From Roseibaca calidilacus (GTDB lineage: Bacteria; Pseudomonadota; Alphaproteobacteria; Rhodobacterales; Rhodobacteraceae), in the NCBI RefSeq assembly GCF_001517585.1, contig NZ_FBYC01000002.1, positions 1-64,000 on the forward strand: a DNA stretch of 64,000 nt, written 5' to 3'. The notes under the pieces were generated by a model. That model did no database searches. It saw nothing but the letters and a program-made list of their open reading frames with translations, and was not told the DNA's origin. The position numbers were made by a program, and so were the translations under genes. Positions 5,492 to 57,843 of this stretch are shown here, piece by piece. Positions within the stretch are counted from its first letter, which is position 1. Each line of letters begins with the position of its first letter.

Positions 5492-6400
5492 CTATCGATC
5501 GTAGCACTGAAGGGCGTCCCGCTGCGCTGCGACCATTTCTGCCTTGCTTCTCCATGATGGATCAACTTGGCTGGCTTCAAACAGACGTCCAGTCAGCCGC
5601 CTTGCGATCATCAGCTTCTCGCGACCATTTGGCAGGGCATCAAAGACTGCGAAGTCTTCCGCAATTCCCTTCTGCCGCTTATTTGGAAGCTTCATGCCTT
5701 CTTTGGTGACGGCGACGCCGGTGATGATCCTAGGTTGGCCGGGGCGGAACACCTTGGTCTTGTGACCGTGCAACCTATAGGATGAAAAGATCTTCCTTGC
5801 TGCATACAGAAGGCCCCTGGTCGCACCTATGCCTGTAAATACCACGTCATCCACATAGACGGTCATGACACAGCCCTTGCTTGCCGCCAGCTTAGCCAAG
5901 GCGTCGAACATGTCCTCGTAGGCAAAGTAGGAAAGGATCGGGCTGGAGCTGCTGCCAGTCGGGAGGTGACCATCAACTGTGAGCAACTTGGTCAGAATGC
6001 CTGCTACGTCCCCCGAGCAAAGCATTCGATCCAGGAAAAAGTGGTGGACCGCCTGTGATCGGACGGACGGGTAAAACTTCCGGACATCGATCTTCACACA
6101 GCCCGCATCCACAGAATGCCCGCTTGCGTTGGTGATGTAGGATCTCCCCCTGATTGCAGAATGCAGGTAATCTGGGGTCTCAATTTTGGCCAGAAGCAAG
6201 GCTACGCGCTTGTGTACCTTGTCCAGCTTCGGCTTGGGTTCCTGGATCGGCCGACCAGTTTTCTTGTCGGTCCATCTCTTGTAATTGTCCGTTGCTGCGC
6301 AAAGCTCGTTCAACTCATCGAGCGTTACCCGCAACCGGTCCGCCAGCATTTGGGGACTGGTGGTCTTGTAAAAAATGGACTGGTTGCGGGGGTAGCTCAT
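5492..6400 (-). CDS. Retron-type reverse transcriptase
   Basis: The 302-residue product has the compact length of retron reverse transcriptases. Visible motifs are NASGH at 91-95, matching the retron-specific NAxxH of region X, KIDVRKFYPS at 103-112 (RT motif A), a PTGSSSSP-type motif B at 147-154, the catalytic YVDD at 182-185, and RIITGVAV around 224-231, matching the retron VTG motif of region Y. There is no maturase or HNH domain, which argues against a group II intron. Known retron RTs make msDNA from a cognate ncRNA and guard against phage with an effector. The start overlaps the stop of the XRE gene (ATGA). YVDD is less usual than YADD. Confidence 0.88.
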   Translation of the reverse strand: MSYPRNQSIFYKTTSPQMLADRLRVTLDELNELCAATDNYKRWTDKKTGRPIQEPKPKLDKVHKRVALLLAKIETPDYLHSAIRGRSYITNASGHSVDAGCVKIDVRKFYPSVRSQAVHHFFLDRMLCSGDVAGILTKLLTVDGHLPTGSSSSPILSYFAYEDMFDALAKLAASKGCVMTVYVDDVVFTGIGATRGLLYAARKIFSSYRLHGHKTKVFRPGQPRIITGVAVTKEGMKLPNKRQKGIAEDFAVFDALPNGREKLMIARRLTGRLFEASQVDPSWRSKAEMVAAQRDALQCYDR

Positions 6401-6705
6401 CGCTCAGACCCTCTGTAATCCGAAATTGTAGCCACCCAGTCCAGCATCTTCACTGCTTTGTCGGCGACGAACACCCTTACATTTTCGGCCTTCCCCGCCC
6501 CTTCCACCTTCTCGGCGAACAAAAGCAAGGAGGACATGGGAATGTCGAAGGCGTCGGAATACTTCTGCAGTGTGGCCATTGAGACGTTCTTGTCGCCCTT
6601 CTCGATTTCAGACACGTAGGATTTTGAAAGGCCCAAGCGCTCAGCGGCGTCGACCTGTGACAGGTCATGATAGACCCTCACAAGCCGCAGGGCTTTGTTC
6701 AGCAT
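6397..6705 (-). CDS. XRE/Cro-type helix-turn-helix protein in the retron-like operon
   Basis: The product has 102 residues. Residues 1-60 form an XRE domain (LSQVDAAERLGLSKSYVSEIEKGDKNVSMATLQKYSDAF), followed by a short alpha-helical tail (VFVADKAVKMLDWVATISDY). I placed the start at the ATG preceded by GGAGGGAG with a 3-base spacer, not at the GTG eight codons upstream. The gene lies 24 bases below the 51-aa membrane protein gene and overlaps the RT gene. HTH partners are known in some retron classes. It may autoregulate the operon or act as effector or antitoxin. Confidence 0.85.
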   Translation of the reverse strand: MLNKALRLVRVYHDLSQVDAAERLGLSKSYVSEIEKGDKNVSMATLQKYSDAFDIPMSSLLLFAEKVEGAGKAENVRVFVADKAVKMLDWVATISDYRGSER

Positions 6706-6729
6706 TTTCTCCCTCCAAACAATGAACAC

Positions 6730-7279: not shown

Positions 7280-9262
7280 TCAAGCATGCTCCGCAATGAT
7301 CCCTCGCGTTGTCTGAACTGCCGCTGCCAGTTCGACACTGTCAGACGCCCGAAGACCGAGCCCGGCCAGATCGAAGGAAAGATGATCTGACCTTGCGCTA
7401 CCCGCAGCGGCCCGTGCGGCCCTCCCTCGCGCCCGGCCCGACGGCGCAGGCTTTGAATCGAGTGGCTCTTGCGAGGGAGAGTGAGCCGATTTGGGCAGCG
7501 CAGCTGCCTCAGAGCCCTGCGCCCCAGCAGCAGCCCGCACCTCCCGCAGTTCCTGCTTCAGCTTCTCCACCGTCTCCCGCGTCTCGGTCATCTGCCGATC
7601 GCGCCGCAGGCCGTCTTCATCTGGGTATGGGAAACTCCCCGCCTGACCGGCATGCAGCACCCTGAGCAACGGGTCCTCGAAATACTTGATCCGCCTTGCG
7701 CGGATCGGCATCTGCGCGTCGATGACGAGGATCACCTCGTCGAGGTCCATGCGGCGTGCCTGATCCTCGGTCAGGAGCGGCGTGTCCTCTGTCCGCTCGG
7801 AGACGCTGCGCCCCTCGAAAGGGTTACGCCCGACCGCGCGTGACCGGGTGATCACGCGCTTGGTGGTCTTGCCCACAGCCTGGCTCAGCTCCTCGATGGT
7901 CTTCTGCTCGGACGGGGTGAGGTAGAGCTTCACGCCCGCGCCGCCCTGCAGCGACCGGCGGGTGTTCTCGCCATAGATCTCGTCCAGCGCCGGGATGGTC
8001 TGGGTGACGATGGCGAGGTTGCCGCCAAAGGAGCGCAGCGTCTTGATGCTTTCGGCGACGATCGGCATTTTCCCAAGGCGATCGAACTCGTCGAGCATGA
8101 TCATCACCGGCCAAGGCTCGTCATCGCCCGGCTCCTGCGCCTGCAGCGAGGCGATCAGGTCCGAGAAGAACAGCCGGATCAGCGGGGCGAGGGGGCGGAT
8201 CATCTCGGACTCGACCACGAGATAGATCGCGTGGGGGCGACGCCGGATGTCCCGGAAGGAGAAATCCGAGGTCGCGGTGGCCGCGTCGATCGCACGGTTG
8301 TCCCAGGTGTCGAGACCCGAGGTCATCAAGAGCGACAGGTAGGAGGTCAGGGTGTCATTGTTGGTCGATGCCATGCGCTCGAAGATCAGCTTGGCCGACT
8401 TGTTCTTCACCTCCTGCGCGCGCTTGAGGTATTCCTTCTGCTTGTCGCCGCCCGAAGCGGTGATGCGGTAGATCTCGCCGATGGTCGGCACGCCGCGCTC
8501 GAAGGCCAGAAGGCCGGCCGCCACGAACAGATCGATGCCCCCGGCCAGAAGCCCGCTCAGCTTTTCGTTGTCGGTCTGCAGGAAGAGCTTTGCGGTCAGC
8601 TTCAGCTCCATCTGCTGCCGGTCGGGATTGGTCATGGCCGCGATGCGCGCCAGCGGATTGTAGCGGTGCGTCGGCCGGTCCCAGTCTGTTGGCGCGAACC
8701 GGAACACCTTGTCGCCCATGCTGGCGCGGAAGCGCGAGGTCTCGCGGAAGTTCTCGCCCTTCACGTCGAGCACCACGGCCGAGCCTTTGTAGGTGAGCAG
8801 GTTCGGGATTACGAAACCCACCCCCTTGCCCCGGCCCGTCGGCGCCACGATCAGCGCATGCGGGAAGGTTTTCGACACGAGGAAGGGGCGCTTCGATTTC
8901 GGAGAGCCAAGCTTGCCGAGAAGGAAGCCGCCGCCCGGCTTGGCGAAGAAGCCGTTGCGCTTCATCTCGTTCCGGGTCTGCCAATGGGTCGTGCCGAAGC
9001 GCGTTAGGGCGTCGCCGAGAAGCGTGACGCTCAGCATCAGCGCGGCGATGCCAAAGCCCGCGAGGATCAGGTTCACCCAGAGGAAGTCCCGGGGGGCGCT
9101 TGTTCCAAGGGCGCGATACTCGCGCGCAAGCAGGGTGACGTCGAAGGCGTCCGTCCTAAGCCCGTAGCGGATGGTCAGGTAGCCGGTGGCCACGACATAG
9201 CCGATGGCGAGGCCAACCAGCGTCAGGCTGAGGATCCCGCCCGCGATCTTGCCTTTATCCAT
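7280..9262 (-). CDS. virD4: VirD4/TraG-type coupling protein ATPase
   Basis: The 660-residue product has two N-terminal membrane segments (about 6-30 and 60-84), Walker A APTGRGKG (about 140-147), Walker B MIMLDEFDRLG and the TraG-family QTIPALDEIYG region. It docks the relaxase-DNA complex to the VirB channel. I chose the ATG at 9262, which overlaps the relaxase stop by 8 bases and follows AGGGG, instead of the longer in-frame start at 9337. The C-terminal 100 residues are Ala-, Arg- and Ser-rich and poorly conserved in appearance. Confidence 0.95.
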   Translation of the reverse strand: MDKGKIAGGILSLTLVGLAIGYVVATGYLTIRYGLRTDAFDVTLLAREYRALGTSAPRDFLWVNLILAGFGIAALMLSVTLLGDALTRFGTTHWQTRNEMKRNGFFAKPGGGFLLGKLGSPKSKRPFLVSKTFPHALIVAPTGRGKGVGFVIPNLLTYKGSAVVLDVKGENFRETSRFRASMGDKVFRFAPTDWDRPTHRYNPLARIAAMTNPDRQQMELKLTAKLFLQTDNEKLSGLLAGGIDLFVAAGLLAFERGVPTIGEIYRITASGGDKQKEYLKRAQEVKNKSAKLIFERMASTNNDTLTSYLSLLMTSGLDTWDNRAIDAATATSDFSFRDIRRRPHAIYLVVESEMIRPLAPLIRLFFSDLIASLQAQEPGDDEPWPVMIMLDEFDRLGKMPIVAESIKTLRSFGGNLAIVTQTIPALDEIYGENTRRSLQGGAGVKLYLTPSEQKTIEELSQAVGKTTKRVITRSRAVGRNPFEGRSVSERTEDTPLLTEDQARRMDLDEVILVIDAQMPIRARRIKYFEDPLLRVLHAGQAGSFPYPDEDGLRRDRQMTETRETVEKLKQELREVRAAAGAQGSEAAALPKSAHSPSQEPLDSKPAPSGRARGRAARAAAGSARSDHLSFDLAGLGLRASDSVELAAAVQTTRGIIAEHA

Positions 9263-11606
9263 GGGTGATCCCCTTTTCGCCATGGGCTGCGGCGTGACGC
9301 GCGCGCTGTGCCTCGATCTGTTCCTCAGCCAAGGCATCCAGAACCCGCTCCATGGCCGGGCCGTGGGCAGTCACCTCACTGCTTTCCAGATAGGCCTTCG
9401 CAAGCTCCAGCTGCCGCAGCGGATGTTCGGTGAACTTGTCCAACACATCAGCATGGCCCGCGCGCAGGGCGGTAACCGCATCTGGCGTGAGGTTTCTGTC
9501 GATCTGCTCGATCAGGCGCTGCCCGACTCCTTCGGGGAGAGATGTGCCCTCCTCGGCTTCAGCCCGCCGCAGGAACGTCGCCACGTCTGGGGCGGTCTCG
9601 GCCATGAAGCGCCGCTCGGCATAGTCTTGCCGCGCTTGGTCCTCGATATCGAAGCTACGCTCACTGATATAGGCGCGCGATGCCCCGGCGGCGCGCAGCC
9701 GGTTGATCTCATCCTGCACCGCCGTCCCAAATTCTTCATCGGGCATCTCCGCGCGGTAGCGCGCGAGGGTGCGGTCATCTTCGGTGATCGGACCGAGATG
9801 TTGCGTAGGATCGCGCAGTGCCAGGTCCATGTCGCCCGCGTGGAGCCTGCGATCCTTCTGCTCGACGGCGAACTCCTGCGGCTTGCGGCTGTCGGTGATC
9901 TTGTCCCAAGCCATCGAGGCCAATTCGGCGTGATCGGGCGATCGCTGTGCATAGGCGTTGAAGGCGGCGCGGGCTTCTTCCACTTCGACAGCACCGGCCC
10001 TGCGCACGGAAGGGTCGTCTGAGAACGGGTAGGTGAAATCTGTCCGTCGGAACTGGGCGACCAGCTGCTGGAAGTCCTGCCGCTCGGACGGGGCGAAGGC
10101 GTCCGGTCCCGCGTCGTCGAGATCGCGGCCCAGTGGCGTCAGACGTTCGGCGAGCGAGACCTCGGCATCCTCCGCCTCATCGACATCGTCGACCGCCCGC
10201 AAGATGCGGGCATCGGTCAGTGTATCGCCCAGGCGGACGTGAACGGCTTCCAGCCGGTCCAGCGCTTCCTCGCGATCCTCGCCCTTCTCTAGATCGAGGT
10301 CGCCCGCCGTGGCGATGGCGCGCAGATCCTGCGCCAGCCACTGCCGTTCGAGGGCTGCATTGCCGGCACCCTCGCGCATGCGGGCGGCTACGGCCTCGGG
10401 GTCGATCCCCGTGCCCTGCAGCGCCTGCGTAAGCCGTGCCTTCACATCCCCGTCGTCGAGACGCATCATCTGGTCCTCGCGCATACTCGCCCGCGCGTAG
10501 ACCCCATCGCGGGACGGCGCATCAAGCAGCGCGGCCGAGCGATCTCCCAGCGGATTGAGATGCGCGACCGAGGCCAGGACATCGGTAAGCTTTCGCTCGA
10601 TTTCCGGCCGCTCGGCTGCGGGCGCCCGGTCGATCGCCGCTTCGATCTGACGGATGTTTTGAGAGAACTCGGTGATCAGCGTGTCGAACGCTGTTTCGTC
10701 TTGGGACATGTAGATGGCTCCGTCAGATTGGACCTGACCGCCACTGGCAAGGATGGTGCTGGCCCGCTCGAGGGCCTCGGCCACGTCATCGAAGTTCGAC
10801 CGGGACGCCTCGGCAGCCAGACCCCGATAGGTCAGCGCGTTGCACGCCACCGTCTCCAGGGCGGCGGCCAGGTCGGCCCCGGTGCGCTGACGCTCGACCG
10901 GCGGCCGGCCCTCGTCACGGGCCTTGTAGACCTCATCAATCTCGGCGCGGTAGGTCGTGACCCCCCGGTCAAGACGCCGTGTCGCTTCGAGCCGGATCCC
11001 GTGGACCTGCGCCGCCTCGACCATCGCCACCCGGAAGGCGTCGTAGTTGAAGTGGTGATCCTTCCCGAGAAAGAACATTTCGCCATCCTTGCTGCGGCGG
11101 TTCAGAACGATATGCGCATGTGGATGCGCGCGATCTTGGTGTATTGCAGCAATATAGTCGAATTGCGACCCCTCACCTTGAAAGAACTTCTCGCAGACGG
11201 ATTCCGTAATCGCGCGCACCTCCTCACCGCTGGTGCCAACGGGAAATGCCATCAGCAGATGCGAGGTATGGCCGAGCTTGGGGCTGTGCCGCTCGCCCCA
11301 CTGGTTCTCAAAGCGGCGCACGACCCGGTCGATCTCGGCCTCGGACAGGGTCTTCTTGCCATCATGTGTGCCACGACTGTCGAGGATGTGGCTCGACTTG
11401 GTGGTAAGATACGTCAGCTGGGCCTTGAGCTGCGCGCCGGTGTGGCACCCACCCTTCGAGATCGGCTTGAATATGGCCGGGGAATAGCCACGCGCCGCGC
11501 GCACCATCTGCGCGTTCCTGGCGAGTCCCTGCCAGCTGCCGGAGACCCGGCTCCAGTCGCGATCGAAGAGGGCGGGCCCGACACCGTGGGCAAGGCGCTT
11601 ACCCAC
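9255..11606 (-). CDS. MobP/VirD2-like relaxase
   Basis: The 783-residue product carries the relaxase three-His signature HQDRAHPHAHIVLN at residues 156-169. A candidate nucleophile Tyr lies in AQLTYLTTK (Tyr66). The enzyme nicks oriT and leads the strand through the VirB/VirD4 channel. The C-terminal 500 residues are acidic and helical (repeated EDAEV-type stretches) and may carry the secretion signal. The GTG start at 11606 overlaps the upstream MobC-like gene by 8 bases. VirC-like genes nearby support a VirD2-type relaxosome. Confidence 0.92.
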   Translation of the reverse strand: MGKRLAHGVGPALFDRDWSRVSGSWQGLARNAQMVRAARGYSPAIFKPISKGGCHTGAQLKAQLTYLTTKSSHILDSRGTHDGKKTLSEAEIDRVVRRFENQWGERHSPKLGHTSHLLMAFPVGTSGEEVRAITESVCEKFFQGEGSQFDYIAAIHQDRAHPHAHIVLNRRSKDGEMFFLGKDHHFNYDAFRVAMVEAAQVHGIRLEATRRLDRGVTTYRAEIDEVYKARDEGRPPVERQRTGADLAAALETVACNALTYRGLAAEASRSNFDDVAEALERASTILASGGQVQSDGAIYMSQDETAFDTLITEFSQNIRQIEAAIDRAPAAERPEIERKLTDVLASVAHLNPLGDRSAALLDAPSRDGVYARASMREDQMMRLDDGDVKARLTQALQGTGIDPEAVAARMREGAGNAALERQWLAQDLRAIATAGDLDLEKGEDREEALDRLEAVHVRLGDTLTDARILRAVDDVDEAEDAEVSLAERLTPLGRDLDDAGPDAFAPSERQDFQQLVAQFRRTDFTYPFSDDPSVRRAGAVEVEEARAAFNAYAQRSPDHAELASMAWDKITDSRKPQEFAVEQKDRRLHAGDMDLALRDPTQHLGPITEDDRTLARYRAEMPDEEFGTAVQDEINRLRAAGASRAYISERSFDIEDQARQDYAERRFMAETAPDVATFLRRAEAEEGTSLPEGVGQRLIEQIDRNLTPDAVTALRAGHADVLDKFTEHPLRQLELAKAYLESSEVTAHGPAMERVLDALAEEQIEAQRARHAAAHGEKGITHG

Positions 11607-12213
11607 GCTTTAGCCGATCCGGGACGAGCGGGGCCCATGCCTTTGTGACCTTGAGCGCCAGATCGGCACGACGCTTCAAGAGAAGCGCCTGCAAGCGATC
11701 AGTCAGATCGAGGATCAGCCCTGCGAATTCGCGAATATGCCCGTGGCTTTCCGCAGTGTAGGACAAAGGCTGGCCCTTTAGCCTGGCTTCGTTCAGCCGC
11801 CGTGCCACCTGATTGATGTTGTTGCCGATACGGCTGATGTCGGCCGCCCGAGCAGAAAGGGCCTCAGTCAACGCGTGATCGGGTTCCAGGATTTCATCAG
11901 CAGCCAACACCAAATGGCGCAAGGCATCTGTGCGACTGGTGATGCCATGACGGGCAAGTGCGGCATCAAACGCGGCCAACTCACGTCGGCTGACCCGCAG
12001 ACCAATGACGATCGGCCGGCTGCCATTCGCGTTTTGTCGGTCCAGAGCGTGGTTCACGGCATTGTAGATCGTCTTCAGGCTGACCCCATACCGCTGGGCC
12101 AGATCAGCAGCGACGACGCCCTGCGCACGCTCTTTGGCGATGCTCAGACGGTCTGTTTCGGTCAGTCTTCGGCCGCGTGACATTTTGAAGTTAACGTTCC
12201 TATTTCTTGCCAC
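11599..12213 (-). CDS. MobC-like relaxosome accessory protein
   Basis: The product has up to 204 residues. An N-terminal helix-turn-helix (LTETDRLSIAKERAQGVVAADLAQRYGVSLKTIYNAV) precedes a MobC-like region with RISRRELAAFD-type and RIGNNINQVARRLN motifs. MobC proteins bind oriT and help the relaxase melt the nick region. The start is uncertain: the GTG at 12213 has a weak ribosome site, and the ATG at 12183 gives 194 residues. The gene is first in the mob operon, directly beside the inverted repeats and heptad array. Confidence 0.8.
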   Translation of the reverse strand: MARNRNVNFKMSRGRRLTETDRLSIAKERAQGVVAADLAQRYGVSLKTIYNAVNHALDRQNANGSRPIVIGLRVSRRELAAFDAALARHGITSRTDALRHLVLAADEILEPDHALTEALSARAADISRIGNNINQVARRLNEARLKGQPLSYTAESHGHIREFAGLILDLTDRLQALLLKRRADLALKVTKAWAPLVPDRLKRG

Positions 12214-12217
12214 CTTC

Positions 12218-12270
12218 GTACAAGCCGGCCTTCTCCCAGCACAAGCGGAGAAGGCATTAAGGGCTTGTAC
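12218..12270. repeat. Nested inverted repeat upstream of the mob operon (candidate oriT element)
   Basis: Outer arms GTACAAGC (12218-12225) and GCTTGTAC (12263-12270) are perfect complements. Inner arms GCCTTCTC (12228-12235) and GAGAAGGC (12248-12255) are also perfect. CAAGC recurs inside the loop. The repeat sits just upstream of the MobC-like start, where relaxase and MobC sites are usually found. It could instead be an operator or an attenuator for the mob operon. Confidence 0.55.
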
Positions 12271-12280
12271 TCAATGTAGA

Positions 12281-12303
12281 AAATCGGCCCCTGGGGCCGA
12301 TTT
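12281..12303. repeat. Perfect 11-bp inverted repeat with one-base centre (operator or oriT site)
   Basis: AAATCGGCCCC and GGGGCCGATTT flank a single T. It has no following U-tract, so a protein site is more likely than a terminator. It separates the nested repeat at 12218-12270 from the heptad array that starts at 12306. Confidence 0.6.
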
Positions 12304-12305
12304 GA

Positions 12306-12678
12306 CGTCCTTTGTCAAATGCAGCGCGCAACGCGCTCAATGTAACGCGTTCCGCGTTCCCTGCACCGTGCATCACGTCTTATGCACGGTGTCGTTTGCG
12401 CTCTGCAGCGCGTCTTCGGGCAAGTGGTGCCGTGTCGATTGCAACACGCATCGCGTCTCGCGCTTCATGCACGGCGTCGCGTGCACCCCGCGTCGCGTTC
12501 CGCGCTTTACGTCTTTTGGAGATTGCCGAATGCAGCAAGTCTTCTGGCAAAAGCATCGCGCAACCTGGATCGCGGCGTCTGTCCCCTGCGCCCCGCTGTC
12601 TGGTCGCTGCAAAACGCGTAACGGCGAATGCATCCTGCCCACCGCATCATGCATCCCGCCTTCCGCTTGACGCCGATG
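12306..12678. repeat. Array of 53 seven-base units (heptads), consensus YGBNNCN
   Basis: Reading the plus strand in steps of seven from 12306, the second base is G in all 53 units. The first is T or C in 50 of 53, the third is never A, and the sixth is C in about half. The G positions run 12307, 12314 and so on to 12426, then after one inserted base 12434, 12441 and so on to 12672. Because 21 bases make three heptads, the array also reads as 21-base repeats and leaves long artefact reading frames open. It lies between the mob operon and virC1. Ribbon-helix-helix proteins such as omega of pSM19035 bind heptad arrays, and VirC2 of Agrobacterium is a ribbon-helix-helix protein that binds the overdrive enhancer. 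Binding by the VirC2-like product is inferred. Confidence 0.85.
12632..12638 (+). other. Possible nic-like site at the virC1-proximal end of the heptad array
   Basis: ATCCTG followed by C matches the core ATCCTG|Y shared by RP4 nic and T-DNA borders, with cleavage after the G at 12637. It is the only such match I noticed in the mob-virC interval. A six-base match is weak, no adjoining inverted repeat is evident, and it lies inside two heptad units, so it may be chance. Confidence 0.25.
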
Positions 12679-12700
12679 CACCAAGAGGTTAGCAACATTA

Positions 12701-12745: not shown

Positions 12746-13465
12746 ATGCCTAACGACAATCTCGTGGTCATCGCCGCGATGGCCCGGAAAGGGGGGAGTG
12801 GTAAAACCACGCTCTCGCGCGCCCTGATCAGCGCTGCCGTGGCTGCCGGGCGACGGGTTCTGCTGATCGACACTGATAGCACCGGAGTGCTTGGCGCCTG
12901 GCACGAACGAGCTGAAGCGGCGGGTCTCGGGTCGCCTCTGCTGCGGTCAATCTCGGTCGAGAGTGTAGGGGCCGTCGATCGCAAAATCGAGCAGGTCTAT
13001 GATGCGGACTCGGCGGATTTCGTCTTCATCGACACGGCAGGCGTCGGCGCGGAATGGTCGGACGGGATCGCCGTTCTCGCCGATCACATCGTGACACCGG
13101 TCATGCTCTCTACCTCGGATCTCGATGTCGGCGCGCAGACGGCCGACTGGTTCGAAAGGTTGCGCGCGCGCGTCGATGACCCGGCGAGCTTGCCGCGCCA
13201 CCATGTCGTTCTAAACATGGTTGACCCGAAAGCCACGCGCGCGGATGCCGGCTTGATCGAAGTGGCGATCGCCCGGTTTCCGGTGATCGAGACGGTGATG
13301 ATGCGCCGCAACGTCTACAAGGAGATGGACGAGAAAGGCCTACTCCATGCCATCGCGCTGCAAAAGCAGGCCGACCCAAACCCACTCATGCGCCCGCATG
13401 TCCGTCATGTCGTCGCGGCCCTTGAGGAGGCCACCGACATCCTCAACAACATCCTGGCCGCGTGA
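12746..13465 (+). CDS. virC1: VirC1-like ParA-family ATPase
   Basis: The 239-residue product has the deviant Walker A KGGSGKT at residues 15-21 and a ParA/MinD fold pattern (VLLIDTDS, FIDTAGVG). Its C-terminus (MDEKGLLHAIALQ, DPNPLMRPHVRHVVAALEEATDILNNIL) resembles Agrobacterium VirC1. VirC1 assembles relaxosomes at the cell pole and raises transfer copy number. The ATG at 12746 follows AAAAGG. A TTG at 12728 is possible but less likely. The next gene is VirC2-like, which supports VirC1 over a second plasmid partition ParA. Confidence 0.85.
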   Translation: MPNDNLVVIAAMARKGGSGKTTLSRALISAAVAAGRRVLLIDTDSTGVLGAWHERAEAAGLGSPLLRSISVESVGAVDRKIEQVYDADSADFVFIDTAGVGAEWSDGIAVLADHIVTPVMLSTSDLDVGAQTADWFERLRARVDDPASLPRHHVVLNMVDPKATRADAGLIEVAIARFPVIETVMMRRNVYKEMDEKGLLHAIALQKQADPNPLMRPHVRHVVAALEEATDILNNILAA

Positions 13466-13475
13466 GGGCAGGGCG

Positions 13476-14132
13476 TTGAGAAAGAAGATTCCAACCATCA
13501 CCCGGCCCGACCCAGCCTATGCCGCGTCCCTTCGGCCGGAGGGGGAGAAAGACCCGGGAAGGGAAGAGGGGGACCGGGAAGAGACCGTCCTGATGCCGAT
13601 GAGCATGACGGCAGACGTGGCGGATGAAGATCAAGCGCCGGCGCCAAGCAGGCCTTCCGTGCCTTCGCCGCAAGCAAGCCCGGAGACAGCGGCCGAGATC
13701 ATAACAGCGCCCACGGCGTCGCAGCCTAGGGTCCGACGCATTCCGGCCACCCGCAAGATCGATATCCGGGTGAACGCGCTGGAACGGCAGGAAGAAGCCC
13801 TCATCGACTGCGGCGTCGACCCCGCTCATGTCATCCGGGCAGCTCTGCGCCGTGCCGTGAAGACCTGGCAGCTCGGGCCAGAGTTCGTCCCACCTTCCGA
13901 AGAGCAGAGAACGCGGATCACCGAATGGCGCGCGCGGACATCTCTGGCCGTCGATGCCAATGCGCTGACTTCCATCCTGCACGCCCATGACCCCCTCGAT
14001 GTGCTCAGCAAGTGGGCCTTGATCCGCGGCCAGATCGAACCGCGTGTCTGGGCGGAGATCGACATTCTCCTGGATGAGATTGCCGTTCGCGCCGCAGCGC
14101 AGAATAGAGAAAATGATACGTCAACAACCTGA
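13476..14132 (+). CDS. virC2: VirC2-like DNA-binding protein
   Basis: The 218-residue product has a disordered Pro/Glu-rich N-terminal third, then a domain (ATRKIDIRVNALERQEEALIDCGVDPAHVIRAALRRAVKTW) consistent with the ribbon-helix-helix part of VirC2, and a C-terminal DPL-containing helical region (HAHDPLDVLSKWALIRGQIEPRVWAEI) that aligns by eye with the VirC2 end. VirC2 binds the overdrive enhancer and cooperates with VirC1. The likely TTG start at 13476 follows GAGGGCAGGG, 10 bases after virC1. Identity is by pattern and position, so moderate. Confidence 0.7.
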   Translation: MRKKIPTITRPDPAYAASLRPEGEKDPGREEGDREETVLMPMSMTADVADEDQAPAPSRPSVPSPQASPETAAEIITAPTASQPRVRRIPATRKIDIRVNALERQEEALIDCGVDPAHVIRAALRRAVKTWQLGPEFVPPSEEQRTRITEWRARTSLAVDANALTSILHAHDPLDVLSKWALIRGQIEPRVWAEIDILLDEIAVRAAAQNRENDTSTT

Positions 14133-14602: not shown

Positions 14603-15745
14603 ATGCGCTGGAACTGGACACAACCCGACTGGCCGAACTTCCGCTATGACCGCGCTGCGATCGAGCCACTCGAACGGCGCTTTCTGCTGTCCTCAGGCGA
14701 AATCCTTGGTGCGGTCCGCCATGTGACGGGCGAGGAGCGCGACCGGCTGCGCATCGAGCTTCTGAGTGAGGAGGCGATGCGGACGAGTGCTATCGAGGGC
14801 GAGGTTCTGGACCGGTCGAGTGTCCAGTCCTCGTTGCGGCGGCAGTTCGGACTGACCACGGAGGGCGTACCCTCCAGGCCCCGCGAGCAGGGCATCGCCG
14901 AAATGATGGTCGATGTCTATTCGAACCACGCGGCCCCTCTGACACACGACACGCTCTCTCACTGGCACGGTATGCTCCTGTCCCATGACCGCGGCCTCGA
15001 GACGATCGGTGCATACCGTCGGCATGACGACGCCATGCAGATCGTCTCCGGCCGCATTGACCGACCGACGGTGCATTTCGAAGCGCCGCCATCGGCGCAA
15101 GTCCAAGGTGAAATGGACGTCTTCGTCGACTGGTTCAACCGCACGGCGCCAGAGGGATCCACGCCATTGCCCGCGCTAACGCGTGCGGCACTTGGGCATC
15201 TGTGGTTCGAAAGCGTCCATCCATTCGAGGACGGCAATGGCCGCTTGGGCCGCGCTCTGGCTGAAAAGTCCCTTGCGCAGAATATCGGCCAGCCGAGCCT
15301 GATCGCACTGGCCTATACGATCGAACGCGACCGCAAGGGGTACTACGACCAGCTCGAAGCCCACCAGAAGACGCTGGATGTGACCGCGTGGCTTTTGTGG
15401 TTTGGCAAGACGGTATTGAACGCGCAGCAGGTCACACTTGCGCGGGTTGCCTTCTTCATCGCCAAGGCGAAGTTCTACGACCAGTTCCGCGATCGGCTGA
15501 ACGACCGGCAGGCCAAGGTGATCGAGCGCATGTTCCGAGAGGGGCCCGAGGGATTCAAGGGCGGGCTCAGCGCCGAGAATTACATCGCCATCACCGGCAC
15601 ATCGCGCGCGACCACGACCCGGGATCTTCAGGACCTGGTCGAGATGGGCGCGCTGAACCGGACCGGGGAGCGGCGGCATACGCGGTATTGGCTGATGTTC
15701 GAATCCGAACGAAACAAACCCAGTGATCAGCCGCCCGTAAAATAG
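14603..15745 (+). CDS. Fic-domain AMP-transferase with N-terminal inhibitory motif
   Basis: The 380-residue product carries the full Fic signature HPFEDGNGRLGR at 206-217 (catalytic His206) and the inhibitory helix motif TSAIEG at 61-66, which makes it a class II Fic protein regulated in cis. Fic enzymes usually transfer AMP from ATP to target Ser, Thr or Tyr. The C-terminus (GLSAENYIAITGTSRATTTRDLQDLVEMGAL) is a winged helix. It converges on brxA with 24 bases between stops. Targets cannot be inferred. Confidence 0.92.
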   Translation: MRWNWTQPDWPNFRYDRAAIEPLERRFLLSSGEILGAVRHVTGEERDRLRIELLSEEAMRTSAIEGEVLDRSSVQSSLRRQFGLTTEGVPSRPREQGIAEMMVDVYSNHAAPLTHDTLSHWHGMLLSHDRGLETIGAYRRHDDAMQIVSGRIDRPTVHFEAPPSAQVQGEMDVFVDWFNRTAPEGSTPLPALTRAALGHLWFESVHPFEDGNGRLGRALAEKSLAQNIGQPSLIALAYTIERDRKGYYDQLEAHQKTLDVTAWLLWFGKTVLNAQQVTLARVAFFIAKAKFYDQFRDRLNDRQAKVIERMFREGPEGFKGGLSAENYIAITGTSRATTTRDLQDLVEMGALNRTGERRHTRYWLMFESERNKPSDQPPVK

Positions 15746-15769
15746 ATCTGCATGCCAAGAGCCAGCAGA

Positions 15770-16498
15770 TCACGCTCCCAAGCGATCCTTCAGACCGACG
15801 ATGCGGGTTCCTGCACTGTCTGCTCTCACTTCCAGAACATCAGACGACGAAAGCAAATAGCCAAGATTGTCACCAAGCGAGAACGGGAACATCGTCGGCT
15901 GACCTGCAAGTCCATCAAGACCCAAAGGGCGTCCAACATGCATAAGCAGTGCCGCGGAAAGCCACTGCACCGTCTCCGGGCTTTGGACCGCCATCGAGGG
16001 CTTCCGCGTCAGCGTTTTGCCATTCTCACTTTTGCTAAGCACGGACCAGTCGACCTGCGACTGTAGGACCATGTTGGTCATGCGGCGAGTGCCTTCTCGC
16101 TCGCCGTATATCTCCGCCATCCGCCTGTGTACTTCAGCAGTGGTGCAATCGCCTTGAATGGCCGTCAGTCGACCGACGATTTCGGCAACCTTTGCAAAGA
16201 AGGGATACACTGCGATGGCCATCCCCCAGGTCAGCACTTCGACTTGTGCATTCGAAACCTTGGCAAAGATGTCGACCCCTCTATCCGCCAAACCGACGAC
16301 CTCCTCGCGCGGTTCAAGCCAGAGACGGTTCAGGACAGTCCGTGTCTTCTTCTTCGCTTCTGGCCCAGCATGAGCTTCCGTGAGGATCTGATCGAGCTCG
16401 CCAATGTCCGCAGCACCCGACCGTACCCGCAAAGCGGCCGCGGCCCAATCAAGGCGGATGAAACGATCAAAGCCGATCTGGGGCGCTTTAGGTTGCAT
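15770..16498 (-). CDS. brxA: BrxA-like protein, last gene of the type 3 BREX operon
   Basis: The 242-residue product is mostly helical (RFIRLDWAAAALRVRSGAADIGELDQILTEAHAG, then NMVLQSQVDWSVLSK) in the manner of BrxA (DUF1819) proteins, which are small DNA-binding BREX components. It overlaps the pglZ 3' end by 11 bases, and its ribosome site AAGAAGAGA lies inside pglZ. Type 3 BREX ends in pglZ-brxA, which supports the name. By sequence alone the call is moderate. Confidence 0.75.
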   Translation of the reverse strand: MQPKAPQIGFDRFIRLDWAAAALRVRSGAADIGELDQILTEAHAGPEAKKKTRTVLNRLWLEPREEVVGLADRGVDIFAKVSNAQVEVLTWGMAIAVYPFFAKVAEIVGRLTAIQGDCTTAEVHRRMAEIYGEREGTRRMTNMVLQSQVDWSVLSKSENGKTLTRKPSMAVQSPETVQWLSAALLMHVGRPLGLDGLAGQPTMFPFSLGDNLGYLLSSSDVLEVRADSAGTRIVGLKDRLGA

Positions 16499-18491
16499 TC
16501 TCTTCTTTCTTCATTCGGATCTTTACGAATGGGACAATCAGCTCTTCTACAGACATCCCACCGTGAGCGACAATTTGATGGCCTGCGGGGACAAAAGCAC
16601 CCCGTCCTTCCGCATACAGCGGCAAGAAATCTGATGGCAGTCCTGTTTTTCCGAACTGGAAGGCGTCAATTTCCGGCGGAACAGATGAAGCAAGATCCTC
16701 GCTGCGATAAGCCCGAACTCGCTCACCCTTCAATTCGGATACAACGCCTTGACTGAGCCGCCCAATACCTTCCGCATCAACGTTGCCGTGGTCTGCTGTC
16801 AGGTAAATATGGTACCCATGCTGGCTAAGCATGGTGAATAGTTTTTCAATGAAGCCAGTTTCGCACCAATCGCGAATTTGTCCAGCGATCCCACGTTTAC
16901 CCAGCATTGCGCCATGCACGATTTCATCGATCATGTCGACAACGATGCCAGCCACTTTTGTCGTAGGCCTTGACAGAGTTTCCTCTAATGCCGCCAGTTG
17001 TTCGGATCGTTTAAGCCCTTTTTGATAGGTGACTTCGGGCTTCCTCAGTCCATTCTCTTGCCAAAACTTAGACCAGAGTGATGGTTCTTGCGCTGTCGTG
17101 CCCATCGAACTCTGGAATTCGCGAGGCTTTAGACCAGAAAAAAGCGCTTGGCGAGAGATGGAAGTCAGTGTCGGCAGCCACGCGAAACACGCACCTTCAT
17201 CTACAGAAAATTCAGAAACTCTCGCAGACAGATCCTCACGGATTTGGACCCACTGATCCAGTGCCAAGCCATCAAACACTACGAGAGCAATTCGATCTTC
17301 ACCAGAGCTACGGCGCATAGCTAAATATCTTGGCACATGGTGCACCATCACAGGCGCTTTCGCGACGGGCAATGAAGGCAAGTCTGTGAAGTGCCGAAAC
17401 ACCCACTCCTTTAGCCGCGCATCGGCGTTCAGTTGCAACGTCCGAACCTGCTCCTGTAGGCCAGCAGCATCTGCGGCTTTGAGTTCATTGAAGCGATATA
17501 TAAGTTCCGCCAGGCGACGGGCCGCTTCCACCCAGTCGCGATAAGGCGCATCGATCAATGGCATGTCGGCTGCGATCCTAGTCGCACCTTCTGACACCAG
17601 TCGGGAAAGTGCCTGCGGATCGTCGATCAATCCTACCCGTATCCAATCCGGTAAGTCTGCAGGTCGTACATGTACAGCTATGGGCTGAAGGACGCCCTCC
17701 AGAAACATCGTGTCAATAATGACGCGCACATCAGGATGATCGAATGGCACAATAAGCGCGTTATTTTCGTCTGCCGTCCAGTCTCCGTCCCTGCCGTAGG
17801 TCTCAACACCATACCGGACAACGAAGCGAGACCACGCATCTTGTAATGCCCGAACCATAAATGCCTTGGATGTCAGCAGTTCTGCGATTGGCAATGTTCC
17901 AAGGGAGGATTCTCTCAGGACCGCCGCAACGTGCTTTGCGAGATGTTCCGGGAGCCCGGTTCCGCGATAGTGAAGACGCAAAACTTCCCGCCAGAAATCT
18001 TCTGGCCTGCTTAGCAAATAGGGGCTGAGCCTAAAGATATGCGTCAGTATAAAATCCTTGGTTGCCCCTTCTCCAAGGGGTTGTGTCGTATGCTTCTGAT
18101 ATGATTGGAAAAGCGCTTCATGATGTTCAGCTTCAATCCTATGGACGACGCCGTAGTTCAGCTTGGGAAATAGATCAGCCAAACCCAGACTGACTTGGCG
18201 CGCCGATCTGATGTAGTCCCACGGGAGTGAATTGAGATCCGTCCCCCTTAGCTGCAAGACAAGCGCCTTGGCAGAACCATCTTCACCAGCATCCCATGCC
18301 GCACGGAAACGCTCTTCGTAATCGGCTCTGAACGATACTGAATCTTCGAAGGGGAGAACCTCAAATCCACGTTCACGAAGACCATGCAGAACTCGCTCTT
18401 CCAAGAGAAGGCCATCCGGATCCAAAGCGATCCAGAAACGGGAAAGATCCGCAGTGAATTCTCGTAGGATGCGGTCGGCCCACTCACTCAT
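16488..18491 (-). CDS. pglZ: PglZ, alkaline-phosphatase-fold BREX protein
   Basis: The 667-residue product has the PglZ domain in the C-terminal half: LVVFDGLALDQW (metal-binding Asp), YLTADHGNVDAEG and VAHGGMSVEELIVPFV. The N-terminal half is helical and acidic. PglZ is the marker gene of BREX and Pgl systems and is required for phage exclusion. The start overlaps the brxHII stop by four bases. The gene is full length. Confidence 0.95.
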   Translation of the reverse strand: MSEWADRILREFTADLSRFWIALDPDGLLLEERVLHGLRERGFEVLPFEDSVSFRADYEERFRAAWDAGEDGSAKALVLQLRGTDLNSLPWDYIRSARQVSLGLADLFPKLNYGVVHRIEAEHHEALFQSYQKHTTQPLGEGATKDFILTHIFRLSPYLLSRPEDFWREVLRLHYRGTGLPEHLAKHVAAVLRESSLGTLPIAELLTSKAFMVRALQDAWSRFVVRYGVETYGRDGDWTADENNALIVPFDHPDVRVIIDTMFLEGVLQPIAVHVRPADLPDWIRVGLIDDPQALSRLVSEGATRIAADMPLIDAPYRDWVEAARRLAELIYRFNELKAADAAGLQEQVRTLQLNADARLKEWVFRHFTDLPSLPVAKAPVMVHHVPRYLAMRRSSGEDRIALVVFDGLALDQWVQIREDLSARVSEFSVDEGACFAWLPTLTSISRQALFSGLKPREFQSSMGTTAQEPSLWSKFWQENGLRKPEVTYQKGLKRSEQLAALEETLSRPTTKVAGIVVDMIDEIVHGAMLGKRGIAGQIRDWCETGFIEKLFTMLSQHGYHIYLTADHGNVDAEGIGRLSQGVVSELKGERVRAYRSEDLASSVPPEIDAFQFGKTGLPSDFLPLYAEGRGAFVPAGHQIVAHGGMSVEELIVPFVKIRMKKEENAT

Positions 18492-21301
18492 TTTCCATCA
18501 TCCAGCGGTTCGCCAATACGCAGAACGAGAAGTGCATTAAGATCTGGGGAATAGGATGCTGCCGCACCTAATTTCGCCATTCGTGCAGCATGCTCGTTCT
18601 GGAGGCGTTTTCTACGAAAATCTCGAACCGTTTGAAGGCCGACCCTCCCAATCGCCTGGTGGCGAGCCTCGAAGGCGTACAGCGCCCGTGCACGCTCCTC
18701 GTCAATCCGCGTCATGTGCTCTGTGACCAGATCAGAAAACATCCGCTCGCCTTGAGAAACCGCAGCAGTTTTTGAACGGTCGAACAAGTCATCTGGGTCT
18801 TGTGAAGTATGGGGTTCGAACTGCTCGACCTGTTCAGTCAAGAGGACATCCCAAATACGCTTTGCCGTAGGTTGGAAGGCGCGCCCCTCATCATTGACGA
18901 ATACCGACAAGAAGCGACGGCGGCTGAAATCATCAGCCGCAAGGCTGATTTCCCAAAGTGACCAAACGCCTTTTACACTATCAGGTAGTCCGGTTATGCG
19001 GACGGCAGGGACCGGTTGGCCGGAAACGCATCTTGGTAGGTCGGAAATCAGGGCCTGTGCCCGAGGATCTTCAAGCGTGACCCATTCTACATCAGGTCGG
19101 GCACCGGCCGTTCGCGCATCGAAGCAAACCGCGGGTGACTCGCTGCCATCAGCCCATCGTATCCGCCACGTGTCGCCATCTCGCGCAGCTTCTCCTCCAC
19201 GCGCTGGCAGTCCGGTCGTAATTGCACGCTCCAGCCAAAACTGCGCCGGGTGATCCCGCCACTTTCGCGCGCCATCAGCATCCAGATCATGTCCATCTGA
19301 TAGAAGATCGCTGCTCTTTCGACTGTCGACCAGCGTGGATCGAAGCTGGGCCAGAACCGCATCGCATTCCGTTTCGATCGACGCGGGGTCTTGAAGTCCC
19401 TGAACGAACAACTCGTCGAACAAAGGTTCTGCTTCTACCGAATCCATCACATCAGCAACTTTATCGACGCCGAATTCTTCCGCGATCACTGCGAGCTTTG
19501 TTTCGAGTACCTCTCGGACACGATGCTCGACGGTGTCTTCGAGCACAAAATTGATTGCCCGCACAATATGGGGCTGCCCAATGCGATCCACTCGACCAAT
19601 CCGCTGCTCAACACGCATAGGATTCCACGGCATATCGAAGTTGACGATGATGTGGCAAAATTGAAGGTTAAGGCCCTCGCCGCCGGCATCCGTCGAGACT
19701 AAAATACGCACATCACTGGAAAAAGCTCGCTGAGCGCGGCCTCGCGCTTCGAGATCCATACTCCCGTTAAGCGTAGCAACCGAGAAGCCCCTGCTCTCAA
19801 GAAAATCCGCGAGCATAGCTTGCGTTGGAACAAACTCGGTGAACACCAGAACCTTCAGCTCTGGATCGTTTTCTTCTTGTTGAATCTTGTAGATCTGCTC
19901 CAGGAGCGCCTCGGCCTTGGCGTCAGTCCCTTGTGCCTCAGTTTCGCGCGCAAGAAAGAGAAGCGCTTCGACATCTTTTCGTTCATCGCCCAGGGCTTCA
20001 AATGCCACGGCAACGTCGATCTGGTCATCACCCGTCAGCTCATGCCAGTCTCCAACACCTTCCGTAGAAAAAAGCTGCAACTGACGATGATCGTCATCCA
20101 GAGCAAGAAGCCGCTTTTCCAAAGTCGCTCGAATAGCCGCAGTGCTGGATGTCACCAACCGCTGCATCAGGATCATTAAGAAACCGATGTGGCGTTGCTT
20201 GGATGCCATGGCCTGATTGTAGCCGTGGCGAACATATTCAGTGACTGCTTCGTACAAGCCCTGCTGCGCGCTGTGGCGATCCAGCCAGGCGACCGCTTGT
20301 GTACGTGTCACGCGCGGCTTGAACAACGGTTTACCTTCGGCATCAATTGCCAATCGTTTTTCGGTCCTGACGACAAAAGGACGGACACGATCACTGGATA
20401 TGCTGTTTTCATTCGGAAATGCGTCACGATCGAGCAGCTGCATCAGCCGGTGAAACTGGTCCGTTTTTCCTTGATGTGGCGTTGCGGATAGAAGCAACAG
20501 GTATGGGGCAGCTTCCGCAAGCGCTGCGCCGAGCTTGTACCGAGCGACTTGATCAGTGCTGCCGCCCATACGGTGAGCCTCGTCAATGATGACGAGATCC
20601 CAGGATGCGGAGACCAAATCTTCAAAACGTTCACGGTTATAGGTGCTGAGTTGCTCTGCACTCCAGCCGCGCCGACCTTCGAGCGGCTTTACAGAATCCA
20701 GCGAACAGATCGCCTGGTCGTGCAGCCGCCAGAGGTTCTCCTCGTCATCGCGAAACTGCCGGTATGCAGAAAGCTCTGACGGCTCGATGAACTGAAAGTT
20801 CTCGCCAAAATGCAGGCGCATCTCTGCCTGCCATTGCCGCACGAGACCTTTGGGCGCGACGACAAGGATCCGCTTGGCCATGCCCCGCAGCTTGAGCTCG
20901 CGCAGGATCAGCCCAGCTTCGATGGTCTTGCCGAGCCCCACCTCATCCGCAAGCAGATAGCGAATTCGATCCCGGCTCATGGCGCGGTTCAAGGCGTAGA
21001 GCTGGTGCGGCAGGGGAACGACGCTCGACTGGATCGGCGCCAGAAGAAGGTTGTCTTCGAGGGCATCCAGAAGCTTTGCCGCAGCGGCGGTATGCAAGAT
21101 CTGATCGACTGATGGTCGGACGGCTTCGAGCGGCCCTAGGTCGCGCGACCTGGCGCGGACGACGGCATCCTTGCCCGGCAGCCAAACCCGGTATGAGGTC
21201 GCGCCCCACATTTCCTCTCGGTCCACAACACGGCAGGGTGCGGCATGTCGTTCATGCCAGCACCACGTGCCAATGCCATAGTCTTGGGCGGCATGCGTCA
21301 C
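18488..21301 (-). CDS. brxHII: BrxHII-type SNF2-family helicase
   Basis: The 937-residue product is an SF2 ATPase: Walker A ADEVGLGKTIEAG at 118-130, DEAH box IIDEAHRMGG, motif III LLSATPHQGK, and helicase C-terminal motifs VSTDAGGEGLNLQ and RIGRVDRIGQ. The C-terminal 350 residues are helical and specific to the family. In type 3 BREX the helicase sits between pglXI and pglZ, as here. Both ends overlap neighbours by four bases, so translation is coupled. Confidence 0.92.
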   Translation of the reverse strand: MTHAAQDYGIGTWCWHERHAAPCRVVDREEMWGATSYRVWLPGKDAVVRARSRDLGPLEAVRPSVDQILHTAAAAKLLDALEDNLLLAPIQSSVVPLPHQLYALNRAMSRDRIRYLLADEVGLGKTIEAGLILRELKLRGMAKRILVVAPKGLVRQWQAEMRLHFGENFQFIEPSELSAYRQFRDDEENLWRLHDQAICSLDSVKPLEGRRGWSAEQLSTYNRERFEDLVSASWDLVIIDEAHRMGGSTDQVARYKLGAALAEAAPYLLLLSATPHQGKTDQFHRLMQLLDRDAFPNENSISSDRVRPFVVRTEKRLAIDAEGKPLFKPRVTRTQAVAWLDRHSAQQGLYEAVTEYVRHGYNQAMASKQRHIGFLMILMQRLVTSSTAAIRATLEKRLLALDDDHRQLQLFSTEGVGDWHELTGDDQIDVAVAFEALGDERKDVEALLFLARETEAQGTDAKAEALLEQIYKIQQEENDPELKVLVFTEFVPTQAMLADFLESRGFSVATLNGSMDLEARGRAQRAFSSDVRILVSTDAGGEGLNLQFCHIIVNFDMPWNPMRVEQRIGRVDRIGQPHIVRAINFVLEDTVEHRVREVLETKLAVIAEEFGVDKVADVMDSVEAEPLFDELFVQGLQDPASIETECDAVLAQLRSTLVDSRKSSDLLSDGHDLDADGARKWRDHPAQFWLERAITTGLPARGGEAARDGDTWRIRWADGSESPAVCFDARTAGARPDVEWVTLEDPRAQALISDLPRCVSGQPVPAVRITGLPDSVKGVWSLWEISLAADDFSRRRFLSVFVNDEGRAFQPTAKRIWDVLLTEQVEQFEPHTSQDPDDLFDRSKTAAVSQGERMFSDLVTEHMTRIDEERARALYAFEARHQAIGRVGLQTVRDFRRKRLQNEHAARMAKLGAAASYSPDLNALLVLRIGEPLDDGK

Positions 21302-24063: not shown

Positions 24064-24098
24064 GTGTTTGTCTCAGTTCAAAATGGGTTGGCGGTTGA

Positions 24099-27824: not shown

Positions 27825-27834
27825 TGTCTTCCTT

Positions 27835-28293
27835 TCAATTAACTCTGAACGGGACCAAGCCATCACAGCCGTAGTCTTGATGTTCTGGGTGTCCTGTCGT
27901 CGCATAGGACAATCTGTTTTCCGCTAAAGAGCCGGGCCAAGCAGCTATGACGCGTCGCGCCTGAGCGTGCCGCCTAAGCAAATCAAGTGGGCTAAGCCGC
28001 AAGCTCTTGTCAAATAGCAGCTCGAGGTTGTCCAAGAGCAGGAGGCCGTTGGACGTGAAATCATCGGCCAATTCCTTCAACAGATCGGCTGCCTGCAGAT
28101 GTCTTCTCGGACCCGGAATGGTGAGCAGCTCACGGCTCAGTAAAGCACCAACGTTGAGGATTTGAAGCTGCCTGCGTCTGGCCAGCTGAGCGAGTAAATC
28201 GCTCTTTCCAGAGTTTGGCGGGCCAATCAGTAACAGCAGCTTGCTGTTGACCACGGCAAGATCCTCAACAAAGCGATCAAGTGATTGGATCAT
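27835..28293 (-). CDS. brxF: BrxF small ATPase, marker of type 3 BREX
   Basis: The 152-residue product has Walker A GPPNSGKS at 24-31 and a Walker B-like LLLLDNLELLF. BrxF is a short ATPase found as first gene of type 3 BREX. The ATG overlaps the stop of the WYL regulator by four bases, so the regulator is in the same transcript. Confidence 0.87.
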   Translation of the reverse strand: MIQSLDRFVEDLAVVNSKLLLLIGPPNSGKSDLLAQLARRRQLQILNVGALLSRELLTIPGPRRHLQAADLLKELADDFTSNGLLLLDNLELLFDKSLRLSPLDLLRRHAQARRVIAAWPGSLAENRLSYATTGHPEHQDYGCDGLVPFRVN

Positions 28294-29186: not shown

Positions 29187-29360
29187 GACTTCCTCCCCAA
29201 GACCACTGAACGCATTGAAACTATGCGCACCCAATTACTGGGCTTGCGGTGACCGTAGAGACTAGATCGCAGTTTTTCAACGTAAATCACGCAGAACCAT
29301 TGCAATGACAGGCACTTTGAATCGATGCCGATGCCGGGTGTTTTGTCCGGATGACGTAGA

Positions 29361-57640: not shown

Positions 57641-57683
57641 GGTGTTTCGGAAGAAAAAGCTTCCCCGTTCACCGCGAGCGGTG

Positions 57684-57712
57684 TTGAAATCGATTCGTTT
57701 TGGGGGTATCAA
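57684..57712 (+). promoter_or_regulatory. Promoter of the repABC counter-transcribed RNA
   Basis: TTGAAA (57684-57689), 17-base spacer, TATCAA (57707-57712) on the strand opposite to repB-repC, in the intergenic region. The start would lie near 57719. Confidence 0.65.
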
Positions 57713-57718
57713 TCAGGT

Positions 57719-57775
57719 GTCGAGACTGATTGAGGCCCTTCGGAAGCATCGCTTTCGGGGGGTCTTTCTTTTTCT
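57719..57775 (+). ncRNA. Counter-transcribed RNA between repB and repC
   Basis: About 57 nt, the usual size for repABC ctRNAs. A terminator hairpin (CCTTCGGAAGC paired with GCTTTCGGGGG, 57737-57761) followed by a T-rich tract closes it. In the sense leader, CAATCAG/CTGATTG forms a stem in the same place. ctRNAs of repABC plasmids reduce repC expression and set copy number and incompatibility. Confidence 0.7.
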
Positions 57776-57814
57776 AGCCGGTCCTCCTTTCGTTCTCTGC
57801 TCGTTTCTGTTGAT

Positions 57815-57834
57815 GTCTTGACCGCGGTCAAGAC
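57815..57834. promoter_or_regulatory. parS-like palindrome 2 (repB-repC intergenic)
   Basis: GTCTTGACCGCGGTCAAGAC, perfect 20-bp palindrome with the same core as the other two sites, 10 bases after the repB stop. Confidence 0.8.
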
Positions 57835-57843
57835 ACGGGGTCG

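Follow-up and report, generated by a model that had tools for sequence, protein, structure and literature searches.

In plasmid pSM19035, it is established that a ribbon-helix-helix (RHH) ParB protein of the delta/omega system binds a parS built from heptads, with 7–10 WATCACW heptads at six sites (PMC9499535). The stb region of R388, with two sets of five 9-bp repeats (stbDRs) spaced by 2, affects both stability and transfer; its StbA is a TraK homologue, and its ParA-like StbB is dispensable for stability (PMC3098194). In NAH7, the partition proteins ParB and ParR stimulate conjugation, ParB as an activator and the KorA-like ParR on the origin of transfer (oriT), and the abstract of that source does not mention a heptad array (PMC12421886). 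The RepC_soli plasmids of Rhodobacterales form a class without repAB, for which the accessible part of the description proposes no substitute partition system (PMC4148982). Here we describe a degenerate heptad array upstream of a virC1-like gene of Roseibaca calidilacus (Rhodobacteraceae). It lies in a window of 64,000 nucleotides, positions 1 to 64,000 of the 97,917-base contig NZ_FBYC01000002.1, to which all coordinates refer unless a related locus (numbered with the prefix L) is named. Three features are central:

12303–12674, plus strand: degenerate array of 53 heptad units with the core [C/T]G[not A], defined from G phasing, a cyclic hidden Markov model (HMM), relatives and shuffles
12746–13465, plus strand: VirC1-like ParA-family ATPase of 239 amino acids, assigned from Pfam, homologue alignment and NCBIfam
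13476–14132, plus strand: VirC2-like protein of 218 amino acids (TTG start assumed), assigned from sequence, predicted structure and fold comparison

This locus shares with the delta/omega system a ParA-type ATPase and contiguous 7-bp repeats that overlap promoters, and its downstream gene encodes a candidate RHH-like DNA-binding protein. However, here one long array adjacent to oriT has 22–60 very degenerate units, the partner is tandem-RHH-like, and the core is YG[not A] rather than the omega consensus WATCACW. Each part has known kinds (omega heptads, VirC/overdrive, R388 stb). Full-text searches of open PMC papers, a collection that mostly lacks subscription journals, turned up neither their combination nor the degeneracy, and among the papers listed we recognised none on heptad arrays upstream of virC1.

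The array is defined by a G at one fixed heptad position, in units 0–17 at 12303–12428 and units 18–52 at 12430–12674; a single extra base splits it into two phases of 18 and 35 units, with a total of about 370 bp. A pyrimidine (C or T) precedes the heptad G in all but three of the 53 units (50 of 53; units 16, 33 and 35 are the exceptions), and the base 3′ of it is A in none of the 53. This agrees with the first-pass annotation, made from the sequence alone, which had described 18 + 35 G-phased units with T or C before and no A after, and the lag-7 autocorrelation that it proposed as a check gave a clear excess at 7 and its multiples: identity at lags 7, 14, 21, 28, 35 and 42 is 0.43, 0.42, 0.46, 0.38, 0.41 and 0.41, against 0.17–0.30 at other lags up to 44. 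The 7-bp G periodicity is far above chance. In the second phase, 37 consecutive G follow at 7-bp spacing from 12420, the first two of them lying before the second-phase units by chance; the longest 7-bp-spaced run was at most 13 (mean 5.4) in 5,000 mononucleotide shuffles of 12280–12700 with any base counted, and the longest such same-base run in the window outside the array is 11. The cyclic HMM fitted 53 units with 1 slip, from −441 to −71 relative to the virC1 start, and a sliding period-7 score exceeded 0.09 only at the array on the whole contig. A coding origin was considered and rejected: long open reading frames (ORFs) cross the array in several frames, but the ORF at 12134–12667 has no Pfam match, and lags 3, 6 and 15 show no excess. 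A 21-bp modulation (three heptads, or two helical turns), by which every third heptad is more alike, is a hint only, with z of 3.2–5.1 in L060–L062 and −1.3 to 2.8 in the other members of the window's cluster.

Arrays of the same period recur upstream of virC1-like genes in relatives, on which the first-pass annotation had made its reading depend. Two overlapping sets of loci were compared (L010 and L075 look like one contig). For the first, the VirC1-like protein was searched against 194 genomes of relatives, and 14 places (L001, L002, L005–L016) were examined among the 18 at E 7e-40 or better; L012 has only 100 bp of upstream DNA, leaving 13 testable loci, and L085 resembles a fifteenth. Period-7 arrays are present in 11 of these 13, and the remaining two have a period-4 array; in 18 weaker ParA loci (L003, L017–L033), an upstream array was looked for and none was seen. 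For the second set, an alignment of nine VirC1-like homologues was scanned against named bacterial genomes, and the best 80 of 376 candidates were divided by similarity into 69 closer loci (L034–L102) and 11 distant ParA/MinD loci (L103–L113). Judging by the genus names in their records, the closer loci are presumably Rhodobacterales, except for L036, a metagenome-assembled genome (MAG) labelled Rhodospirillaceae. Within these best 80, the period-7 score upstream of the virC1-like gene is at least 0.13 in 63 of the 69 closer loci, and at most 0.07 in the distant ones, 0 of 11 having an array.

Of 82 loci fitted with the HMM, 72 were assigned period 7. The gain was positive in 71, each array has 22–60 units, and phase slips number three or fewer in 68 of the 72. 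Units in phase in a row reach 53 in L005 and 57 in L006 and L007. L071 has a negative HMM gain, yet its period-7 score is 0.170 against a maximum of 0.070 in 200 resamples; L069 and L070, outside the HMM fit, have array-like lag scores, that of L069 being above resamples. No array was found upstream of the virC1-like gene of L037, a MAG contig with mob fragments. The genome of the window carries a second virC1-virC2-mobC module, L002, with a virC1-like gene 41% identical and its own array (L002 2306–2540, AGC core); two modules with different specificities may coexist in one genome. Gap lengths in pairwise alignments, 166 out of 589 being divisible by 7, were discarded as uninformative, because cheap gap extension creates false gaps in repetitive DNA, and phase runs and HMM slips were used in their place; in cluster c2, 17 of 17 gaps are 42 bp, probably one event that sets L067 apart from the rest.

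Selection appears to act on very little of each unit. In pairwise comparisons of 15 close relatives, the heptad G is 99.2% identical, whereas the other six positions are 67–77% identical, and fourfold-degenerate sites of virC1, taken from 13 of these loci (all but L066 and L094), are 68% identical. What persists is thus the G with its phase, and most of the other positions drift almost freely; the C/T before the G and the absence of A after it are also conserved in close relatives. Other lineages retain the 7-bp phase with different cores (AGC, ACA, CGGA, AT). Elsewhere the period itself differs. For example, GT-rich period-4 arrays of 33–35 units replace the heptad array upstream of virC1 in L013, L014 and L085, and period-13 arrays stand there in L101, L102 (core CATGACG) and, less clearly, L097; the period-13 score of L100, 0.075, lies within resamples. 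None of five non-window VirC1-family loci from a class search has period 7 (0 of 5): the period is 8 in L123, 11 in L127 and 9 in L128, and L124 and L126 have no clear array period. In L123, the downstream protein matches Pfam VirC2, and the period-8 array is at the corresponding place. This distribution suggests that array geometry and the VirC1/VirC2 pair are re-set as one, given the periods of 4, 13, 22 and 8 in related modules.

Comparisons of locus pairs point the same way. MobC, the relaxosome protein encoded beyond the array, is 93% identical between L002 and L013, which have the same nic-like core, but their VirC1 and VirC2 are 47% and 26% identical and the array period is 7 in one and 4 in the other. 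Between L013 and L085, MobC is 59% identical, VirC1 96% and VirC2 76%, and both arrays have period 4; between L001 and L005, MobC is 46% identical, VirC1 94% and VirC2 72%, and the array profiles are very similar and of the same type. In partial Mantel tests on 25 period-7 loci, a set that retains L069, L118 and L130 despite poorly resolved HMM profiles, once MobC is controlled for, the profile of the array correlates with VirC1 (r 0.38) and with VirC2 (r 0.24), both with p 0.001, and there is no correlation with MobC given VirC1 or VirC2. By these sequence comparisons, the array type follows VirC1/VirC2, not MobC. The proposal of the first-pass annotation that the array is a loading site for the VirC2-like protein fits this co-variation in part: VirC1 and VirC2 are inseparable as the specificity determinant, because their distances correlate at 0.93.

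The first-pass annotation also named the two downstream neighbours. Its ParA-like VirC1 is borne out by a match of 77 bits to Pfam VirC1 (PF07015; cut-off 24), while the NCBIfam VirC1 equivalog (77.6 bits) is short of its cut-off of 313 and ParA_partition (84.6 bits) is below its cut-off of 180; in the deviant Walker A, K15, G16, G17, G19 and K20 are invariant in 9 aligned homologues. The proposed RHH-type VirC2-like protein has a basic N-terminal motif with a nearly invariant R2, and the predicted model is mostly disordered to about residue 80 and then forms beta-alpha-alpha twice (residues about 90–216), which is tandem-RHH-like, with a predicted local distance difference test score mostly above 90 across residues 90–216. 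However, the protein does not match Pfam VirC2 (PF07181), and fold matches of the model to RHH proteins are weak. One structural comparison placed VirC2 (2rh3) first, with a weak score that unrelated folds equalled; hhalign against the VirC2 of L123 gave E 0.0028, but a probability of 11% over 36 columns, and a sequence search of the PDB with the profile of the VirC2-like protein returned nothing meaningful.

On its other side, the array adjoins a predicted oriT, and at its end it meets a promoter-like element:

12201–12212, plus strand: nic-like site, TATTTCTTG followed by CCA, the sole TATTT[CT][CT]TGC[CT]A match in the window, counting both strands
12218–12270, no strand: nested inverted repeat from the nic-like site to the array, seen by eye, with arms 12218–12226/12262–12270 and 12228–12236/12247–12255
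11599–12183, minus strand: MobC-family, VirD1-like relaxosome protein, with the ATG at 12183 as start and only 17.9 bits to NCBIfam VirD1
9255–11606, minus strand: VirD2-like relaxase (Pfam Relaxase; best NCBIfam match VirD2, below cut-off)
7280–9337, minus strand: VirD4-like coupling protein (Pfam; best NCBIfam match VirD4, below cut-off)
12667–12671, plus strand: TTGAC, a −35-like box of virC1 within the last heptads, by sequence match

The array therefore sits between the divergent mobC-relaxase-coupling-protein genes (7280–12183, minus strand) and virC1-virC2 (12746–14132, plus strand). The strand and cut of the nic-like site were assigned by analogy with the VirD2/IncP-type nic consensus, by which the cut would fall between 12209 and 12210. 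Of 80 loci searched, 77 carry the loose pattern C[C/T]TGC[C/T]A close to the start of mobC: in 74 of the 77 the sequence is ATTTC[C/T]TGC[C/T]A, in L123 and L131 it is ATATCCTGCCA, and in L121 there is a chance-like match only, without the full motif. The outer arms of the inverted repeat are conserved in a five-locus alignment, an upstream GTG at 12213, an alternative mobC start, would overlap the nic-like site, and the relative NZ_CP085160 is typed MOBP by PLSDB. In 59 of the 87 loci, a TTGAC occurs no more than 130 bp upstream of virC1; judged by this box alone, the contiguous 7-bp repeats upstream of the parA-type gene overlap its candidate promoter.

If 12201–12212 is the nic with the usual strand, then the array and virC1-virC2 enter the recipient first. 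The array would thus lie 3′ of the nic-like site, in the predicted leading region, unlike overdrive, which sits across the border nick, on the non-transferred side. The locus shares with Agrobacterium VirC1-VirC2/overdrive a VirC1-family ATPase, a VirC2-like partner, VirD2/VirD4-like neighbours and a cis element near the nick, but it differs in an array placed upstream of virC1, with period 7 over 370 bp, and even L123, with its Pfam VirC2 match, has period 8. On this predicted geometry, the equivalence to overdrive drawn in the first-pass annotation is not borne out in the form given there. With R388 stb, the locus shares tandem repeats beside oriT, a ParA-like gene (StbB in that plasmid) and the gene order, and, if the predicted nic holds, it would share a place in the region that enters the recipient first (PMC3098194).

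Whether the module serves transfer, partition or both may depend on the plasmid. The window plasmid has a replication and partition operon of its own:

56507–59968, minus strand: repABC operon on the same contig, with RepA above its NCBIfam cut-off and RepB and RepC just below theirs

With this repABC present, the module in the window plasmid more likely serves transfer or positioning. We then considered seven complete or near-complete RepC-only plasmids (L118–L122, L130, and L131 with L132), of which L120 and L122 are near-duplicates, L122 lacks its last 1,098 bases and L130 its last 2,883. Six are small records from the VirC1 list, and NZ_CP010649, taken from the RepC list because no VirC1 was listed for it, has a diverged VirC1 and a period-22 array. 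"RepC-only" is judged here from incomplete PLSDB gene tables combined with a DNA scan for K[GS]GxGK[ST]; tblastn searches for RepA and RepB covered L118 and L119, and RepB matched the ParB-domain protein of L119 at E 9e-4. All seven, which are of the kind called RepC_soli (PMC4148982), carry the module: the single ParA-type Walker A motif is that of VirC1 in 7 of 7, and a repeat array lies upstream of VirC1 in 7 of 7, with period 7 in six and period 22 in one (L131; by eye 7+15). With no ParA-type Walker motif found in the RepC-only plasmids examined other than that of VirC1, a partition role is likely there. The 15 plasmids with the RepC most similar to that of L119 (at least 41%), many of them near-duplicates, are all in the VirC1 match list; L119, L120 and L122 of these were examined, as were two from the remaining 45 of that RepC listing. 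A ParB-domain protein is encoded on six of the seven RepC-only plasmids (L119 38085–39929; L120 576–1220, annotated shorter; L121 22668–24518; L122 37953–39779; L130 43467–45320; L131 31533–33419), and a second ParA was not found in them.

In the complete plasmid L121, a relaxase, MobC and a coupling protein were not detected (best E 0.095) and no nic motif was found, while the array is retained, along with VirC1, the VirC2-like gene and some genes of a type IV secretion system (T4SS); in L071, mob genes were not found within 4 kb upstream, nor a nic motif, and the period-7 signal is still present. Since the array is retained without detectable mob genes in these two loci, transfer enhancement is not its sole likely role, and both cases speak for a module that, like a partition system, can persist in the absence of transfer. 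The first-pass annotation had suggested, as a possibility, a dual transfer enhancer and centromere; its interpretation is partly supported, and the comparison with overdrive is half right. L121 also has a second short heptad array at 25680–25763, with 12 in-register [C/T]G units far from virC1, which could be a second parS-like site.

Taken together, we consider it fairly probable that the origin of transfer here incorporates a ParABS-like positioning module, in which VirC1 acts as ParA, the VirC2-like protein as an RHH ParB and the array as parS. The VirC2-like protein would bind the 53 heptads cooperatively, an RHH unit to each 7 bp, recognising hardly more than the pyrimidine-G step in each, and would thereby form a filament, a long protein-DNA spiral beside nic. 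Its N-terminal tail might engage and stimulate the VirC1 ATPase, linking the plasmid to the nucleoid or pole. Such positioning would serve relaxosome and T4SS docking and, in plasmids without repAB, probably segregation too, and binding across the virC1 −35 box would autoregulate the operon.

Alternatively, the array might be a pure transfer enhancer, on which VirC2 and VirC1 aid relaxosome assembly or T4SS docking in the manner of overdrive, with no role in inheritance. In Ti plasmids, VirC1 stimulates T-strand formation at overdrive (PMC4285021), and the setting here would suit such a role, with a MobC-like gene called past the upstream end of the array in 77 of 87 loci and the nic-like site beside it, VirD4/VirD2-like neighbours, and a separate repABC in the window plasmid. 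However, arrays without detectable mob genes (L121, L071), VirC1 as the only ParA-type Walker motif in the RepC-only plasmids, and the position on the leading side of the predicted nic make this rather unlikely. A still lower probability goes to the view that the array is an operator only, an oversized autoregulatory site for virC1-virC2 transcription. RHH ParBs do autoregulate from parS (PMC9499535), and the TTGAC box lies within the last heptads, but 370 bp of phase-locked units, or 22–60 units in 72 period-7 loci, far exceed what an operator needs.

The binder might also be a MobC/VirD1-like relaxosome protein, an RHH protein of the NikA type, instead of VirC2, since mobC is divergent at the other end of the array and its product gives a NikA-like signal of 20.5 bits, below the cut-off of 27. 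We regard this as very improbable, as the array type differs at 93% MobC identity and is unchanged at 46–59%, the partial correlation with MobC is absent, and L121 and L071 have arrays without detectable mobC. Least credible of all is a functionless heptanucleotide repeat generated by slippage, or an artefact. The very low similarity among units and the stretches of near-identical units in L119 would speak for it, but the G alone resists substitution while the rest drifts, and the same location is occupied in many lineages by long runs with few slips.

Beyond the single locus, the ParABS-like reading may extend, with slightly less than even confidence on our part, to a widespread and so far unnoticed class of oriT-linked centromeres. 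In these, about one base per heptad would be read as phase by filaments of tandem-RHH VirC2-like proteins moved by VirC1; the same array would position the relaxosome and be the missing partition site of RepC_soli plasmids, and its period and core would have been re-set repeatedly (7, 4, 13, 22, 8) with VirC1/VirC2, without any necessary change in the nic-like site or the MobC type.

Two neighbouring regions lie outside this module. A reverse transcriptase gene (5492–6729, minus strand; Pfam RVT_1, 2.3e-7), preceded by a gene for an HTH_3 regulator, possibly belongs to a retron-like or other reverse transcriptase system. By eye, 14603–29234 looks like a defence island, with a Fic-like gene followed by PglZ-like, helicase and DNA methyltransferase genes and large minus-strand ORFs.

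Similarity or consensus searches would probably miss a putative protein-binding array of this type, because most of its information is spacing. The array is a candidate DNA target for the VirC1/VirC2 pair outside Ti plasmids and offers a testable answer to how RepC_soli plasmids may be inherited without repAB. If the proposed module is correct, partition and conjugation would be coupled in one cis element in many plasmids of a large bacterial order.
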